Source of the DNA: Patescibacteria group bacterium | GTDB taxonomy: Bacteria; Patescibacteriota; Gracilibacteria; UM-FILTER-43-11 | Assembly (NCBI GenBank): GCA_018813295.1 | Contig: JAHJBZ010000052.1 | Location: 1 to 41,139 of the forward strand | Direction of reading: 5' to 3' | Length of the DNA: 41,139 nucleotides | Shown here: in pieces, positions 1,138-26,126 of the stretch | Numbering within the stretch: position 1 is the stretch's first letter | Layout of the letters: the number at the start of each line of letters is the position of its first letter | Notes under the pieces: generated by a model | The model's input: the letters and a program-made list of their open reading frames with translations, nothing else | Databases searched by the model: none | Told to the model about the DNA's origin: nothing | Position numbers and translations under genes: made by a program

Positions 1138-2310
1138 TTATATAAGCTTCAAAAACTTCTCCGCCTTCAGCATACATTCTTCGTATTCTTTTTCAGGCTC
1201 GCTGTCTGCCACTATTCCCCCACCGGCCCAGTATTCGATGTAGCCGTTTTGGACGAGGGCAGTGCGGATGGCGATGTTGAAGTCCATCTGGAATCCGGAC
1301 TCCCCTGGAGTCCGGACTCCAGACTGAATATAGCCAACACTCCCCGTAAATATATTCCGTGGCAATCCCTCAAGCTCCTCAATATACTCCATTGCTCGTT
1401 TTTTTGGGCAGCCGGTTATTGAGCCGCCGGGGAACATTGCTTTAATTATTTGATCGGGGGTGAGTCCGGACTCCAATTTTCCCTCAACTTGCGAATAAGT
1501 ATGCCAAAGGTTTTTAAGTTCTAAGACTTCACGTTCTTTGGCGAGGCGTAATGTTCCATATTTGCAGATTTTTCCGACATCATTACGTTCGAGATCGGTG
1601 ATCATATCTAGCTCAGCCCTTTCTTTATCGCTGTTTAACAATTTTTTTAGATTTTTATCAGGAAACAGGAAACAGGATTCAGGATTCAGTCTATTTAGAT
1701 TTTCTGTTTTCTGTTTCCTGATTCCTGAATCCTTGGCAATAGTGCCTTTAATTGGTTGAGTGATGATTTTATTACCTTCAACTTTAAAAAATCGTTCCGG
1801 TGAATTGCTTATTATTTGGAAATCACCACAATTCAGGTAAGCGGAGAAGTCAGTTGGATTGGCTTCAGTTAGCCTTAAAAACAATGCGTATGGGCTTCCT
1901 ATGAACTTTTTTCTAAATCGAATACAATAGCACATTTGATAAATTTCTCCGGCAGCAAGAAGCTCTTTGATTTGGTGAATTTTTTTAATGTATTCGGATT
2001 TGGTGACGGATTGTTCGAGTTTTCCGGATGTTTCAAAAGAAATCCCATCAACCGAAGGCGGACAAACGTTTGTCCGCCTTCGGGGGTGGGTAATTGTTTT
2101 TAATTCATCAAATTCGTAAAACCGACTATCAGGAATATTATTTTTGAGGGTTGGGTTTGGATATGCAAAATAACCGATTTGAAATTTCGGATTTCGCATT
2201 TCGGATTTCGCATTCAATCCGATAACTGACCGCACATTACCCCCGCCCCATTTACCATGGAGAACTGCAAAACCTTCCCTATTGATGTCATTATTTGATA
2301 ACTTTGCCAA
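1138..2310 (-). CDS. pabB: Aminodeoxychorismate synthase component I carrying in-frame repeat insertions
   Basis: Chorismate-binding enzyme that, with the PabA glutaminase, makes 4-amino-4-deoxychorismate for p-aminobenzoate and folate. Visible motifs: S-P-E-R-F-F (170-175), P-I-K-G-T (186-190), L-D-M-I-T-D-L-E-R-N-D (234-244), P-G-G-S-I-T-G (294-300) and D-F-N-I-A-I-R-T (343-350). The Lys in PIKGT is typical of PabB; TrpE has Ala there. The start is a TTG with no Shine-Dalgarno; an in-frame TAA lies upstream and no closer ATG exists. Four repeat-derived stretches are read in frame: residues about 32-46, 76-87, 195-219 and 330-340. The third enlarges the loop after PIKGT to 36 residues before the S-D-K-E motif (about 19 in E. 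coli PabB as I recall it). All core motifs are intact, so the enzyme may still work. pabA lies 16 bp upstream. No pabC is visible. Confidence 0.88.
   Translation of the reverse strand: MAKLSNNDINREGFAVLHGKWGGGNVRSVIGLNAKSEMRNPKFQIGYFAYPNPTLKNNIPDSRFYEFDELKTITHPRRRTNVCPPSVDGISFETSGKLEQSVTKSEYIKKIHQIKELLAAGEIYQMCYCIRFRKKFIGSPYALFLRLTEANPTDFSAYLNCGDFQIISNSPERFFKVEGNKIITQPIKGTIAKDSGIRKQKTENLNRLNPESCFLFPDKNLKKLLNSDKERAELDMITDLERNDVGKICKYGTLRLAKEREVLELKNLWHTYSQVEGKLESGLTPDQIIKAMFPGGSITGCPKKRAMEYIEELEGLPRNIFTGSVGYIQSGVRTPGESGFQMDFNIAIRTALVQNGYIEYWAGGGIVADSEPEKEYEECMLKAEKFLKLI
1291..1322. repeat. GAGTCCGGACTC palindrome inside pabB, copy 1
   Basis: An 18-bp perfect palindrome at 1305-1322, centred on gagtccggactc, follows a partial copy (tccggactcc) at 1294-1303. 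It encodes PabB residues 330-340 between G-Y-I and M-D-F-N-I, where homologues have a shorter turn, so it looks like an in-frame insertion. Confidence 0.7.
1462..1473. repeat. GAGTCCGGACTC palindrome inside pabB, copy 2
   Basis: A 12-bp perfect palindrome identical to the core at 1307-1320. It encodes E-S-G-L at PabB residues 280-283. Here the protein length matches the family, so it could be chance or replacement rather than insertion. Confidence 0.45.
1660..1733. repeat. Heptad-built hairpin element (aggaaac/aggattc family) inside pabB
   Basis: Left arm 1660-1689 is four 7-bp units (aggaaac twice, aggattc twice) plus ag. Right arm 1704-1733 is the complement of four similar units. A 14-bp loop separates them. 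The element is read in frame as PabB residues about 194-217, including G-I-R-K-Q-K-T and E-S-C-F-L. The same architecture with 30-bp arms occurs at 3722-3781 at the end of nadC. Confidence 0.85.
2052..2083. repeat. 32-bp perfect palindrome inside pabB
   Basis: Every base from 2052 to 2083 pairs with its mirror position; the core is cggacaaacgtttgtccg. It encodes PabB residues 76-87 (P-R-R-R-T-N-V-C-P-P-S-V) in the linker before the chorismate-binding domain, so it is read in frame. Confidence 0.85.
2175..2216. repeat. Heptad tandem repeat (gaaatcc/gaaatgc) inside pabB
   Basis: On the minus strand 7-bp units gaaatcc, gaaatgc, gaaatcc and gaaattt follow one another without gaps. They encode PabB residues about 32-46 near the N-terminus. 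The 7-bp phase is shared with other elements in this window although the unit sequence differs. Confidence 0.7.
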
Positions 2311-2315
2311 AATGA

Positions 2316-2350
2316 AAATTGTAAATTTAAAATTGTAAATTTAAAAAATT
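2316..2350. repeat. Heptad tandem repeat at the pabA/pabB junction
   Basis: Units aaattgt and aaattta alternate twice (period 14 = 2 x 7) at 2316-2343, followed by aaaaatt. The repeat supplies the last four residues (N-L-Q-F) and the TAA stop of pabA and ends just before the TTG start of pabB. Confidence 0.75.
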
Positions 2351-2911
2351 GTGCAGCAATTTTTTACCTTCTTTCGTTCCAAGGCTCTCGGGGTGAAATT
2401 GAACTCCAAAAACCGGATATTTTTTATGTTGAATTCCCATAATTAAAAAATCTGATGTGTGGGCCACGGTATCAACTTCTGAATTCATCCAAAAGGGCGT
2501 GTCGACGATTAAAGAGTGGTATCGCATGGCCTCAAAAGGGCTTTTTATACCCTTAAAGATCCCTTGATTGGTGTGATAAATATCCGACCTTTTCCCATGC
2601 ATTATTTTTGGTGCACGGATAATTTGACCTCCAAAATATTTACAGATCGCCTGATGACCGAGGCAAACGCCCAGAATTGGAACCTTTTTATAAAATTCCT
2701 TAATTACGTCGAGTGTGATTCCGACGTCCTTTGGATTATCAACGGTGCCGGGACCTGGTGAAAGGACGATGTGAGTCGGTTTTTTTCTTTTAATTTGCTC
2801 GACTGTAATTTCATCATGAAAAAAAACCTCCGGATTTCCTCCAAGCTCCCCGAAATATTGTTTGAGGATGTAGGTGAAGGAATCGTAGTTGTCGATTATG
2901 AGGGTCTTCAT
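2327..2911 (-). CDS. pabA: Aminodeoxychorismate/anthranilate synthase glutaminase subunit
   Basis: Class I glutamine amidotransferase of 194 residues that hydrolyses glutamine and passes ammonia to the chorismate-binding partner. It opens with the family hallmark L-I-I-D-N-Y-D-S-F-T, then S-P-G-P-G-T (51-56), nucleophile Cys83 in G-V-C-L-G-H-Q, and His173 and Glu175 in F-H-P-E-S. The reading frame extends about 66 codons further upstream, but that extension is repeat-derived and non-conserved, so the ATG at 2909-2911 is chosen. It lies 16 bp upstream of pabB, which supports a pabA-pabB pair. Sequence alone cannot separate PabA from TrpG; the PIKGT partner next door favours PabA, and some bacteria share one glutaminase for both. 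The last residues come from a heptad repeat. No Shine-Dalgarno sequence is seen. Confidence 0.9.
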   Translation of the reverse strand: MKTLIIDNYDSFTYILKQYFGELGGNPEVFFHDEITVEQIKRKKPTHIVLSPGPGTVDNPKDVGITLDVIKEFYKKVPILGVCLGHQAICKYFGGQIIRAPKIMHGKRSDIYHTNQGIFKGIKSPFEAMRYHSLIVDTPFWMNSEVDTVAHTSDFLIMGIQHKKYPVFGVQFHPESLGTKEGKKLLHNFLNLQF

Positions 2912-2943
2912 ATTTTTATTGTTGGCTTGCCTTATCTTATTTT

Positions 2944-3054
2944 CGCTACGCTGTGGATGCGTCCCGACTATGGGACTGTGGATTCGGCTAGCGCCTGTGG
3001 TTGAATTCAGTATGCTTATTGCATTCACAGCGTAGCGCATCCACAGCGTTAGCG
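2944..3054. repeat. Complex inverted repeat with GTGGA blocks upstream of pabA
   Basis: cgctacgctgtggatgcg at 2944-2961 pairs with 3036-3054 (one extra base in the latter). Between them gtgga/gtggt blocks are separated by small self-complementary spacers such as gtcccgactatgggac. It fills the gap between the transglutaminase-like gene, whose stop abuts it at 3057, and pabA. The layout resembles the element at 26484-26646. Confidence 0.7.
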
Positions 3055-3056
3055 AA

Positions 3057-3713
3057 TTACAATTGATAATATGTTTTTCTCGCCAACGCGGAACTGTCTG
3101 GCAATTCATTAAACTGACACGTATCGCATGTCGCCTCCAAATTTAACCACTTTTCACTTTTATATTTTGGAATACTGATTTGGGCAAAGGCATGACTTGG
3201 TACATAAACAAGTTGTACGCTATTACCAATTGATTTTTCCAGGGCGAGAAGTAGTACCGCCATATCTTCACAATCTGCGCCACCGGTTTTTAGGACGGTG
3301 ATTGGATTTTCGAGCTGGTCGTGGAATTTTTCATCCGGGACGTATTGAATATTGTCGCGGACGAAATAAAAAAGCGCTTTGCTTTGGCAAACGCGATCAG
3401 CCTTTTTACAGGAATTGGCTGCGATGTAGTTAGCGACTTGTTTTATTGTGTCGCTGGATTCTTCCATTACGATTTCGAGATCATCTGCGCGGTGTGATGT
3501 GAATGGGTTATCCAAATTACTAGGCAAAAATTCTTGAACCTCGGAAAGTTTTGGAATATTTACTGGTTCCGGATGCATTAAATAAAAATACCCCTGAAGT
3601 GACAGAAGAAATAATGCCACGGCAGTAAATAGCGCTAATACGCCATAAAATGGATTACGTTTTTTTGGTGTAATTTCTTCGTACTCCTGATGGTGTGGAT
3701 GTTGTTGGTTCAT
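3057..3713 (-). CDS. Membrane-anchored transglutaminase-like cysteine protein
   Basis: 218 residues. A charged, His-rich N-terminus is followed by one membrane segment (about 22-45), so the rest probably lies outside the membrane. The C-terminal domain has the transglutaminase-like triad pattern: Cys148 in G-G-A-D-C-E-D, His174 in P-S-H-A-F-A and an Asp at about 197 after L-E-A-T-C. The G-G-x-C-x-D layout is typical of bacterial transglutaminase-like/arthropod-defensin-like peptidases. Likely roles are protein crosslinking or peptide/wall cleavage; the substrate is unknown. Two extra cysteines (102 and 109) and C-D-T-C at 196-199 could form disulfides. It starts 6 bp after nadC and is probably co-transcribed with it. 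The stop codon abuts a large repeat element. Confidence 0.7.
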   Translation of the reverse strand: MNQQHPHHQEYEEITPKKRNPFYGVLALFTAVALFLLSLQGYFYLMHPEPVNIPKLSEVQEFLPSNLDNPFTSHRADDLEIVMEESSDTIKQVANYIAANSCKKADRVCQSKALFYFVRDNIQYVPDEKFHDQLENPITVLKTGGADCEDMAVLLLALEKSIGNSVQLVYVPSHAFAQISIPKYKSEKWLNLEATCDTCQFNELPDSSALARKTYYQL

Positions 3714-3719
3714 ATTTAT

Positions 3720-4673
3720 CTAGGAAACAGGATCCAGGAAACAGGATTCAGCTGTTTTCTGTGTTCTGTGTCCTGTTTCCTTTATATTAAGTGACATATC
3801 TAAATTTTTTGCTCTACCGGTAATTGCGCCAGAAGAAATAGCAGTCACTCCTTTTATGCAGTATTTTTCAATATTCCTCTCGCTAATACCTCCAGATAAT
3901 TCAATTGTTAAGCCAGCTTGTTTTAGTTGCGGGATAACTCGTTTGATATCGGCCGGTCTAAAGTTATCCAGCATAACCACTACAGGTTTTTGGGGGGTGA
4001 CCTTCTCTTTCAGACTATCATAAACGACGAGAAAATCGTGAATTTGATCAATGCTTTCCAATTCAATTTCAACAAAACGCACTTTTTTATTTTTTAGAAC
4101 TTTACTAAGCCCACTTCCCCAATCCATTTCAAAATCCAAGTGGTTGTCTTTAATAAGTACAGCATCATCCAGGTTTAGACGGTGAGTTGCACCGCCTCCG
4201 AGTGCGACGGCTTTTTTATCAAGCAAACCCCATAATGTTTTCCGAGTTGCTAGGAGCTTGATGGTTTTTGGTAATTTGGAACTTAGTTTTTTGCTTGCAG
4301 TTGCAACCCCACTCATTCGTTGTAAGAGATTTAGGAGTGTGCGTTCGGCGGAAAGTATTTTTTGGATCGTACCTTCAATTTTTAAAACAATATCTCCTCT
4401 TTTTATATCCGTACCTTCTTTAAACTTTTCTAAAACTTTTATTCCAAGCCGATTTAAAAACCACTCTGCCTCATGTATGCCAGCTAAAATACCCTCTTTA
4501 TTCATCACAACTTCTGCGATGACCTTTTTACTTTTATTTTTGATAAAAAGATTGGTGGTGACATCTCCTTTTCCAAGATCCTCAAGATAAGCCTGCCATA
4601 CATAAAGCTGTACCGCTTTTTTGTAAACGGGGTTTTTTAGACTTAGCTCACCTACGGCATTTAAAAAAGACAT
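3720..4673 (-). CDS. nadC: Quinolinate phosphoribosyltransferase with repeat-encoded C-terminal tail
   Basis: Converts quinolinate and PRPP to nicotinate mononucleotide in de novo NAD synthesis. The middle of the protein has the family core A-T-R-K-T, then G-G-G-A-T-H-R-L-N-L and L-I-K-D-N-H, and the C-terminal barrel motif S-G-G-I-S. Length is 317 residues from the ATG at 4671-4673; a GTG directly before it is a possible but less likely start. Homologues normally end soon after the segment seen here as L-D-M-S-L-N-I. This copy continues for about 20 residues (K-E-T-G-H-R-T-Q-K-T-A-E-S-C-F-L-D-P-V-S) encoded by the heptad hairpin at 3722-3781, which also provides the TAG stop. nadA and nadB are not in the window. 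The transglutaminase-like gene follows after 6 bp. Confidence 0.92.
   Translation of the reverse strand: MSFLNAVGELSLKNPVYKKAVQLYVWQAYLEDLGKGDVTTNLFIKNKSKKVIAEVVMNKEGILAGIHEAEWFLNRLGIKVLEKFKEGTDIKRGDIVLKIEGTIQKILSAERTLLNLLQRMSGVATASKKLSSKLPKTIKLLATRKTLWGLLDKKAVALGGGATHRLNLDDAVLIKDNHLDFEMDWGSGLSKVLKNKKVRFVEIELESIDQIHDFLVVYDSLKEKVTPQKPVVVMLDNFRPADIKRVIPQLKQAGLTIELSGGISERNIEKYCIKGVTAISSGAITGRAKNLDMSLNIKETGHRTQKTAESCFLDPVS
3722..3781. repeat. Heptad-built hairpin element at the 3' end of nadC
   Basis: Two adjoining 30-bp arms (3722-3751 and 3752-3781) with no loop, each made of four 7-bp units of the aggaaac/aggattc type plus ag; about 23 of 30 positions pair. The nadC reading frame runs through nearly all of it and ends at a TAG partly inside it. 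It is the same family as 1660-1733. Confidence 0.85.
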
Positions 4674-22289: not shown

Positions 22290-22323
22290 AAAAATCCGTC
22301 CCGCTGAGCGGGACGGATTTTTG
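22290..22323. terminator. Strong bidirectional terminator hairpin
   Basis: Perfect 16-base arms around one G at 22306: aaaaatccgtcccgct and its complement. The A- and T-rich ends make it symmetric. It is a second terminator 14 bp after the first. Confidence 0.88.
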
Positions 22324-22849: not shown

Positions 22850-22994
22850 AATTGTCTGAACTGTGATTTATGTGATTAAATTGATTTTTATGATTTACGT
22901 AGAGACGTTGCATTGCAACGTCTCTACAGTGTTTATGTATATAAAAAAATCATGTCCATCAGTACAATCATAAGAAATCACAGTTCAGACAATT
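22850..22994. repeat. Composite palindromic element between convergent genes
   Basis: Outer perfect 20-bp inverted arms (22850-22869 and 22975-22994). Next to the left arm TGATT recurs every 9 bp four times, and a similar spaced set is on the right. The centre is a 29-bp hairpin (22899-22927) with arms gtagagacgttgca and its complement around one T. The right arm covers part of the gatA TAA. From memory, both the centre and the outer arms resemble dispersed repeats of other bacteria; this is unverified. Confidence 0.85.
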
Positions 22995-24760: not shown

Positions 24761-24928
24761 ATTTTGAAAGCTTGAAAACTTGAAAAAATCAACCCTTGAG
24801 CTGGCTCCATGGCTTTGCCTGGAGTCAGGTCTGTCTGATTATCTGACTTGCTGACTCCACGTACAACATGGAGCCAGCAAGGGGTGTGATTTTTTTGGTG
24901 ATGTTAATTTTCAAATTTTCAAAATTTT
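24761..24928. repeat. Large inverted repeat with octamer-built arms and a 35-bp shared core
   Basis: Left arm: ttgaaa every 8 bp three times (24764-24787). Right arm: complementary aattttc/aaattttc units (24906-24928). Inside are a tggctccatgg/tggagtcag inverted segment and a 35-bp block (24848-24882) identical to 26074-26108. It fills most of the gap between gatC and the tRNAs. Confidence 0.8.
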
Positions 24929-25243: not shown

Positions 25244-26056
25244 ATGCAAATAGATACTTTTTTTTACAAATTTGGCCTAACTAATAATGAAAAAAATATA
25301 TATCTTTTTCTTTTAGGAAATGGACCTGTTATTGCCAGCGTGATTGGAAAAAGAGCTAACATAAAACGCGTTACAGTATATGCGTCACTCGATAGTCTGG
25401 CTAAAAAAGGATTAGTAATTTCTTTTGAAAAAAATAAAGTTAATTATTTTGAAGCCGTTCATCCTGAAGAAATACTATCTATTTGCAAAGAACAAACTGA
25501 GGAAGCTTTAAACCTACAAAACGAAGCTAAAAAAGTTTTATCTGCCCTCAAACAAGTAGAAAAGAATAGGATTGCTCCAATAATAGAGGTGGGAGGTAAA
25601 ATTAAATATTACCAAGGCCTGGATGCTGTAAAAAAATTAATTTACGAAACATTGGAGGAGGGGGCAAAAGAACAATTGTGTATTGGCTTAAATAGGTATC
25701 ACACGCAGCATTTGTGGGATGAGTGGAAAAAATACACAAAAAGAAGAAAATCAGTTGGCATGAATGTGCGCAGCATTCAGCCAGATACAAAAGCTGCAAG
25801 AGCCTATAAAAAAAGAGATGAAAATGAATTACGCGTAACTCGTCTTGTGCCCGATAAAAAATTCCCTACCAAATGTGAACTAAATATAATTGGTGATATG
25901 ATTGCATTATTCACTTCTCATGGAAACGAACCAAGTGGGGCAAAGATTTATAATAAAGATATGGCACAAGTTTTGAGAAGTTTGTTTGAACTAGCCTGGG
26001 AAAAATCTAAAGAATATGATGAAAAAATTACCAAAGGAGCTAAAAAATCTAAGTAA
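25244..26056 (+). CDS. TrmB-family transcriptional regulator
   Basis: 270 residues. The N-terminal winged helix is TrmB-type: L-T-N-N-E-K-N-I-Y-L-F-L-L (12-24), V-I-G-K-R-A-N-I-K-R-V-T-V-Y (33-46) and L-A-K-K-G-L-V. A coiled-coil helix (about 80-115) follows, then a C-terminal alpha/beta region with a phospholipase-D-like fold seen in many TrmB proteins, here without a catalytic H-x-K motif. DNA binding is well supported; the ligand is unknown. Short inverted repeats upstream may be its own operator. Its TAA stop is inside a 26-bp-arm hairpin. The gene downstream has its own promoter. Confidence 0.85.
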   Translation: MQIDTFFYKFGLTNNEKNIYLFLLGNGPVIASVIGKRANIKRVTVYASLDSLAKKGLVISFEKNKVNYFEAVHPEEILSICKEQTEEALNLQNEAKKVLSALKQVEKNRIAPIIEVGGKIKYYQGLDAVKKLIYETLEEGAKEQLCIGLNRYHTQHLWDEWKKYTKRRKSVGMNVRSIQPDTKAARAYKKRDENELRVTRLVPDKKFPTKCELNIIGDMIALFTSHGNEPSGAKIYNKDMAQVLRSLFELAWEKSKEYDEKITKGAKKSK

Positions 26057-26126
26057 ACTTGAAAATTTAACCCTTGCTGACTCCACGTACAACATGGAGC
26101 CAGCAAGGGTTAAATTTTCAAGTTTA
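26054..26126. repeat. Perfect 26-bp-arm hairpin carrying the TrmB gene stop
   Basis: Arms 26054-26079 and 26101-26126 pair fully; the loop has a further ctcca/tggag stem. It contains the 35-bp block (26074-26108) also found at 24848-24882. The TAA of the upstream gene is the first three bases. It may serve as a transcription end, although no T-tract follows. Confidence 0.88.

Follow-up and report, generated by a model that had tools for sequence, protein, structure and literature searches.

The pabB locus and its product

The window, by which we mean the whole 41,139-nucleotide stretch of DNA analysed, is contig C23 of the host genome (G000; 1.53 Mb in 87 contigs, about 90% complete). The gene pabB lies on its minus strand at 1138..2310 and encodes aminodeoxychorismate synthase component I in one open frame of 390 codons, with an assumed TTG start. 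A profile search matched the core of the product to Chorismate_bind (E 8.6e-77), and its closest solved structures among the PDB matches were PabB of Bacillus subtilis and Escherichia coli. The motifs PIKGT, KERAEL, ITDLERND and GGSITGCPKK (GCPK) are conserved, so the catalytic motifs are kept, as the initial annotation of this DNA had held. The chorismate-binding fold, the lysine of PIKGT and an adjacent PabA-type partner ORF identify the product as PabB. This partner, a pabA/trpG-type glutaminase ORF (2327..3109, minus strand) that matches the glutaminase domain of GuaA, lies directly upstream, and the junction of the two genes carries, beside pabB, a AAAATTGTAAATTT heptad array of the same repeat class as those described below (2309..2346, no strand assigned). 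The nearest named relatives of this pabB come from metagenome-assembled genomes labelled Candidatus Peregrinibacteria, Gracilibacteria or Patescibacteria.

Repeats are also found elsewhere in the window. The 3' end of nadC enters a CAGGAAA-type heptad hairpin (3718-3785), which is the source of the last NadC residues, and strong intergenic inverted repeats lie at 26054-26126, 24783-24895, 22290-22322 and 1077-1137.

No stop codon interrupts any of the family pabB orthologues listed, and their frame is open throughout. For the family pabB core, dN was 0.13-0.31 with saturated dS, which indicates strong purifying selection; the absence of stops together with the low dN shows that the PabB enzyme is under selection. 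Judged from sequence, the repeat elements within the gene are most simply read as translated.

Five in-frame repeat sites within pabB

The initial annotation had described a heptad array, a 32-bp palindrome, a heptad hairpin and a palindromic doublet within pabB, none of them breaking the frame, and all four were recovered at their positions. When mapped onto an AlphaFold2 model of PabB built on 39 sequences (pLDDT 89.4, pTM 0.89), the four corresponding loops, here called A, A2, B and C, fell at turns and coincided with local confidence minima.

All sites are read on the minus strand. Loop A (2175..2216, detected at 2182-2215; residues ~32-46) is a (GCGAAAT CCGAAAT)n heptad array in the turn between modelled strands 27-31 and 43-48; it is a tandem array and not a hairpin. 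Loop A2 (2052..2083, residues 76-87) is a 32-bp perfect palindrome, CCGAAGGCG-GACAAACGTTTGTC-CGCCTTCGG, which belongs to a dispersed family that we call F2 and is flanked in the model by residues 71-74 and 92-100. Loop B (1656..1734, residues 193-219) is a heptad hairpin of CAGGAWW units and their reverse complement; it is placed between strand 187-192 and helix 219-225, where the model has its lowest confidence, partly below 50. Loop C (1287..1323, residues 330-342) is a doublet of a second family, F1, composed of GAATCCGGACTC/GAGTCCGGACTC and reading TCTGGAGTCCGGACTCCAGGGGAGTCCGGATTCCAGA on the coding strand, in a modelled beta-hairpin turn between strands 323-330 and 340-345. A fifth in-frame site, overlooked in the initial annotation, is site D (1461..1474, exact word 1462-1473), a single F1 word GAGTCCGGACTC read as LESGL that adds no length; the same word lies at the same place in pabB of the related genome G006. 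Three of the pabB elements of the host genome gave hairpin z-scores of -4.8 to -7.4.

The residues of these repeats had been expected to be absent from relatives. This was borne out for residues 76-87, 195-219 and ~330-340, which are extra, loop B being 21 and loop C nine residues longer than in insert-free relatives; it did not hold for residues 32-46, since in insert-free relatives loop A is filled by unrelated sequence of equal or greater length. In the manner of Rickettsia palindromic elements, loops A2, B and C are therefore in-frame insertions at positions where relatives have gaps, and loop A and site D are not. Because loop A replaces sequence without lengthening the protein and site D adds nothing, not every pabB site is an insertion.

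The same loops in related genomes

The 13 family PabB proteins, including the present one, align well outside the four loops. In G011, G012, G006, G016, G009, G005 and G010 the loops occupy the same places and carry different hairpins or heptads. The loop A heptad array is common to the host genome and G011, with 24 identical bases in the same phase, whereas four-fold sites are only 42% identical; plain neutral drift does not predict this. In G016 and G009, loop A consists of reversed or mixed arrays with embedded palindromes, and in G012 of an unrelated perfect palindrome. The G009 array (pabB at L238:4722-5942) apparently encloses another two palindromes with lengths divisible by three (21 and 24 bp), which look like insertions within an insertion. 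Loop A2 of G006 and of G011 carries an F2-like palindrome with another interior, and the loop B arrays of G000, G006, G016 and G010 are mutually unrelated heptad arrays. For loop C, seven genomes have seven sequences, mostly with strong hairpins; these are mostly unalignable, and scores higher than those of shuffles were obtained for G011-G012 and a small number of further pairs.

On a tree built without the loops, loops A and C require one change each and loop B at least four. Loop C may reflect one ancient gain with later replacement, or several gains. No inserts were found in loops B and C of G003, G008 and G017. G003 and G015 likewise had none in pabB; both genomes are poor in repeats, with 4-5 noncoding features per 100 kb compared with 33 in the host genome. 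In the sampled relatives, second copies of the loop motifs were few (two close copies of the G012 loop A, none for most others); their inserts are therefore classed by hairpin or heptad form and not as dispersed families.

Repeat families in the host genome

Several unrelated repeat classes had been proposed to meet in pabB, and a genome-wide search found copies of each elsewhere in the genome. Family F1, GAGTCCGGACTC (GGAGTCCGGACTCC in singlets and doublets), occurs at 34 genome sites, against 0 for the reversed word. Doublets are frequent and spaced 17 bp, and nearly all copies are exact (24 exact and 4 with one mismatch in a 411-kb sample). Family F2, CCGAAGGCG-N14-CGCCTTCGG, has 26 copies in the host genome, five in G011 and single copies in G006 and G002; the reversed pattern gave none. 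The loop A2 palindrome would have passed for unique, as a search with its exact core returned one copy, but the search with the foot revealed the 26-copy family; only the interior of this member is unique.

The F2 interiors are variable yet self-complementary. Among 16 distinct sequences, 99.2% of the possible pairs were formed, whereas slid controls were only 34-49% paired, and 51 cells had changed on both sides compared with 17 in shuffles. This covariation also holds in intergenic copies.

Period-7 arrays are abundant, diverse and mostly intergenic. The heptad word changes from nearly every locus to the next, and the arrays therefore look locally generated. The loop B word CAGGAWW has 50 overlapping matches in the host genome, and, with up to two mismatches allowed, the loop A word CGAAATN was located at about twelve further loci. 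In 411 kb of the host genome we observed 73 noncoding period-7 arrays, many of them folding back; none was found in 200 kb of G003.

ORFs contain about 19 of the 28 F1 loci and 11 of the 26 F2 copies; the genes concerned include tilS, pdxT, guaA, ribD, miaB, queA, tsaD, rsmI and obgE, as named by Pfam or PDB matches or by sequence inspection. In TsaD, F2 has genuinely inserted: nine relatives and the best solved TsaD lack the corresponding stretch or have a shorter one. The single F1 copies in TsaD (read GSPDS) and GuaA lie on native codons and add no residues; in GuaA the word reads GVRTL where relatives have GVR(I/M/L)L. Because these copies lengthen nothing, F1 may, judging from its sequence context, have spread by overwriting compatible sequence, and the same observation prompts the comparison with HIP1 made below. 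Words that look as if written over compatible sequence were noted at conserved codons in guaA (C15), tsaD (C53) and, judged by eye, a rluD-like gene (C2) of G000, and on native codons, also by eye against known motifs, in aroB-like (C22) and ung-like (uracil-DNA-glycosylase-like; C156) genes of G006.

Association with Y1_Tnp genes

Matches to PF01797 were obtained in 9 of 18 genomes in a first search and in 3 of 6 in a second. One such Y1_Tnp gene of the host genome (C18:43067-43639; 30 bits against a cut-off of 23) carries F1 on both sides of its ORF and within it, and its orthologue in G006 (C60, L276:1336-1902; 71% identical) has F1 at the same two places and at a third. F2 lies inside a Y1_Tnp-type gene (C65:44884-45501) and inside shorter HUH-containing ORFs at C1 and C55, both of which are without a Pfam match as called. 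In the G011 orthologue (C2, L277:1426-2055), F2 sits at the same place in a reading frame that differs from that of G000. Genes of the Y1_Tnp/RAYT type were thus seen to carry their own REP-like palindromes inside the ORF at matching places across genera.

By sequence, F1 and F2 look like REP-like elements of Y1_Tnp/RAYT-type (IS200-like) genes, which would mobilise them. Both are dispersed short palindromes with copies flanking a Y1_Tnp/RAYT gene. F1 starts with GGAG and F2 with CCGA, and neither has GTAG/CGTC at the foot; as this tag is absent, we call them REP-like and do not file them with GTAG/CGTC REPs. The presence of Y1_Tnp follows that of pabB inserts only loosely, and ancestry confounds the relation: in G014 the gene occurs with no clear insert, and G005 (79% complete) has an insert and no match. 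Separately, a GTAG-tagged REP-like unit, the GTAGAGACGTTGCA hairpin, was observed in the window (22899-22927) and at L191:15-43; a copy lies inside a transposase-like ORF (C18:15-43), and G012 has a similar unit (L215:4872-4901).

Excess of repeats in pabB

We surveyed 411 kb of the host genome (86% coding), a 27% sample taken in stretches and including the window, with a detector of period-7 arrays and inverted repeats, using ORFs from a simple ORF caller. It detected 82 arrays, nine of them coding, and 79 inverted repeats, 16 of them coding. Codon-shuffled versions of the 340 ORFs contained no heptad array and, taken together, 1-4 inverted repeats; since shuffling leaves almost none, chance is excluded as a source of the pabB repeats. 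Among the 340 ORFs, 321 had no site, 17 had one, one had two and pabB had four. Four sites in pabB against 19 in the other 339 ORFs corresponds to a Poisson P of ~6e-7, or ~2e-4 over all ORFs.

Over ten family genomes, pabB had 12 sites in 11.6 kb and the other ORFs 30 in 979 kb, a 34-fold excess behind which stand fewer independent events, because the genomes share ancestry and loops A and C may each be one gain. Family controls gave 0.87 sites per kb for PabB, 0.19 for TsaD and 0 for GuaA. The proposal that pabB is a hotspot is thus upheld in the host genome and among its relatives. It had further been suggested that these elements tolerate or favour insertion into coding sequence. Tolerance fits the data and a preference does not, as only 9 of 82 heptad arrays are coding, and about two thirds of the GAGTCCGGACTC loci are genic in a genome that is 86% coding.

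Discussion

We consider that pabB is a neutral sink for repeat DNA, produced by tolerant loops, a filter for the reading frame and active repeat production, and we give this reading a probability of about two in three. The genome would generate three kinds of short repeat, namely F1, F2 and period-7 arrays that often fold back. These would be made or moved throughout the genome, and most copies in genes would be lost; copies would survive in pabB because turns A, A2, B and C tolerate extra or replaced residues while the frame stays open, so that the translated inserts would be neutral ballast. Hairpin-templated repair would alter both arms of an element jointly, keeping them complementary as the sequence changes, and loops maintained in this way would change much more quickly than the core of the enzyme. 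Tolerant turns and partial dispensability of the pathway are the likeliest reasons why pabB exceeds other genes.

A bolder proposal is that the turns of the enzyme act as family-wide docking sites at which unrelated hairpin repeats settle and are replaced, template switching keeping their arms complementary, so that repeat DNA supplies new protein sequence faster than the core evolves. We hold it tentatively, at clearly less than even odds.

Other explanations account for parts of these observations. The word GAGTCCGGACTC might be a maintained DNA word, similar to HIP1 or to DNA uptake sequences, that spreads over codon-compatible sites by biased conversion and point change. The exactness of its copies, the share of its loci within genes and the single words overlying native codons without a change in length, in GuaA and TsaD and by eye in G006 ORFs, all fit such a word. 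However, 34 copies per 1.5 Mb are sparse for words of this kind, the 17-bp-spaced doublets and the clustering at a Y1_Tnp gene resemble REP units, and in pabB no more than sites C and D would be accounted for; we think it rather unlikely. Decay of pabB, in which folate synthesis is dispensable and junk builds up under relaxed selection before the gene is lost, would agree with the lack of a pabB match in 5 of 18 same-family genomes (G001, G002, G004, G007 and G013), and with heptad arrays in pabA of G016 and in a dihydropteroate-synthase-like ORF of G009. Each family pabB found is nevertheless open, its core is under strong purifying selection and its catalytic motifs are invariant, which makes decay an unlikely account.

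The elements could instead act as nucleic acid, with mRNA hairpins that tune translation or stability and are hence kept despite sequence change. Many inserts have z-scores of -3.4 to -7.4, the changes in F2 are complementary, and the loops stay occupied across the clade as their sequence changes. Yet same-family orthologues without inserts exist (G003, G008 and G017), the loop A array does not fold, intergenic F2 copies covary too, and a function in mRNA does not predict that elements lie at protein turns; we judge it improbable. Hairpin-forming inserts that are skipped within genes occur in some mitochondria and in phage T4 gene 60. By this precedent, the pabB inserts might be bypassed by ribosomes or removed from the RNA, leaving a protein without them. 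All orthologues keep the frame and are free of stops, which skipped elements would not need, and we give such bypassing very little credence. The neutral sink remains the reading that we prefer.

Several features of this sink have relatives among known systems. Short palindromes in singlets and dimers, with copies flanking Y1_Tnp genes, recall the REP/RAYT system (REPtron, PMC3733652; REPINs, PMC3116915; RAYTs, PMC2817692). In contrast to the REPs of PMC3733652, F1 and F2 lack the GTAG/CGTC tag; copies lie inside the transposase ORF, F2 combines a constant 9-bp foot with a 14-bp interior in which the changes are paired, and the hot gene pabB also takes arrays that are not REPs. The 34 F1 and 26 F2 copies are also low for REPs, which often exceed 100. 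Intragenic REPs, some in frame in conserved genes and some in repeatedly hit genes, are already published, including one case, recB, in which two Xanthomonas species carry the element at roughly corresponding positions (PMC3733652).

The resemblance to Rickettsia palindromic elements, drawn in the initial annotation, is an analogy: both are palindromic repeats in frame inside conserved genes, but the present ones are shorter (12-37 bp), comprise several unrelated classes per gene and belong to another phylum. HIP1 of cyanobacteria (PMC4390886) is, like F1, a short exact palindrome over-represented within genes, but F1 is longer, far rarer, found in doublets and clustered with a transposase gene. 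Heptamer direct repeats such as TAACTGA of Beggiatoaceae (PMC4679880) share the seven-base period and the mostly intergenic location; in the host genome, the word is peculiar to almost each locus, folding back of the arms is frequent and some of the arrays fall in coding sequence. Joint change of both arms of inverted repeats by hairpin-templated repair is described in PMC8604942, PMC8794818 and PMC7202029, and inverted repeats homogenised by template switching, whose arms stay complementary despite multi-base changes, in coding sequence too, in PMC8604942, PMC8794818 and PMC6649704. Unlike those cases, ours is a dispersed bacterial repeat family, in which we infer template switching.

Our literature search turned up no publication that treats REP or RAYT elements of Patescibacteria, nor any on heptad arrays of the host type in the same phylum. 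The design of F2 and the REP-like copies inside transposase ORFs are new, and we know of no precedent for unrelated repeat classes that converge, in different genera, on the same loops of a single enzyme.

New protein sequence has been proposed to arise by the insertion of repeats, for which the usual examples are single elements in single genomes. The pabB gene offers a replicated natural experiment, in which unrelated repeat classes occupy the same loops in several genera, insert-free relatives exist and the fold is solved, and it makes the reading of the loops as neutral ballast testable. It also brings to view, in Peregrinibacteria-like genomes, two families of REP-like elements that have copies within transposase genes.
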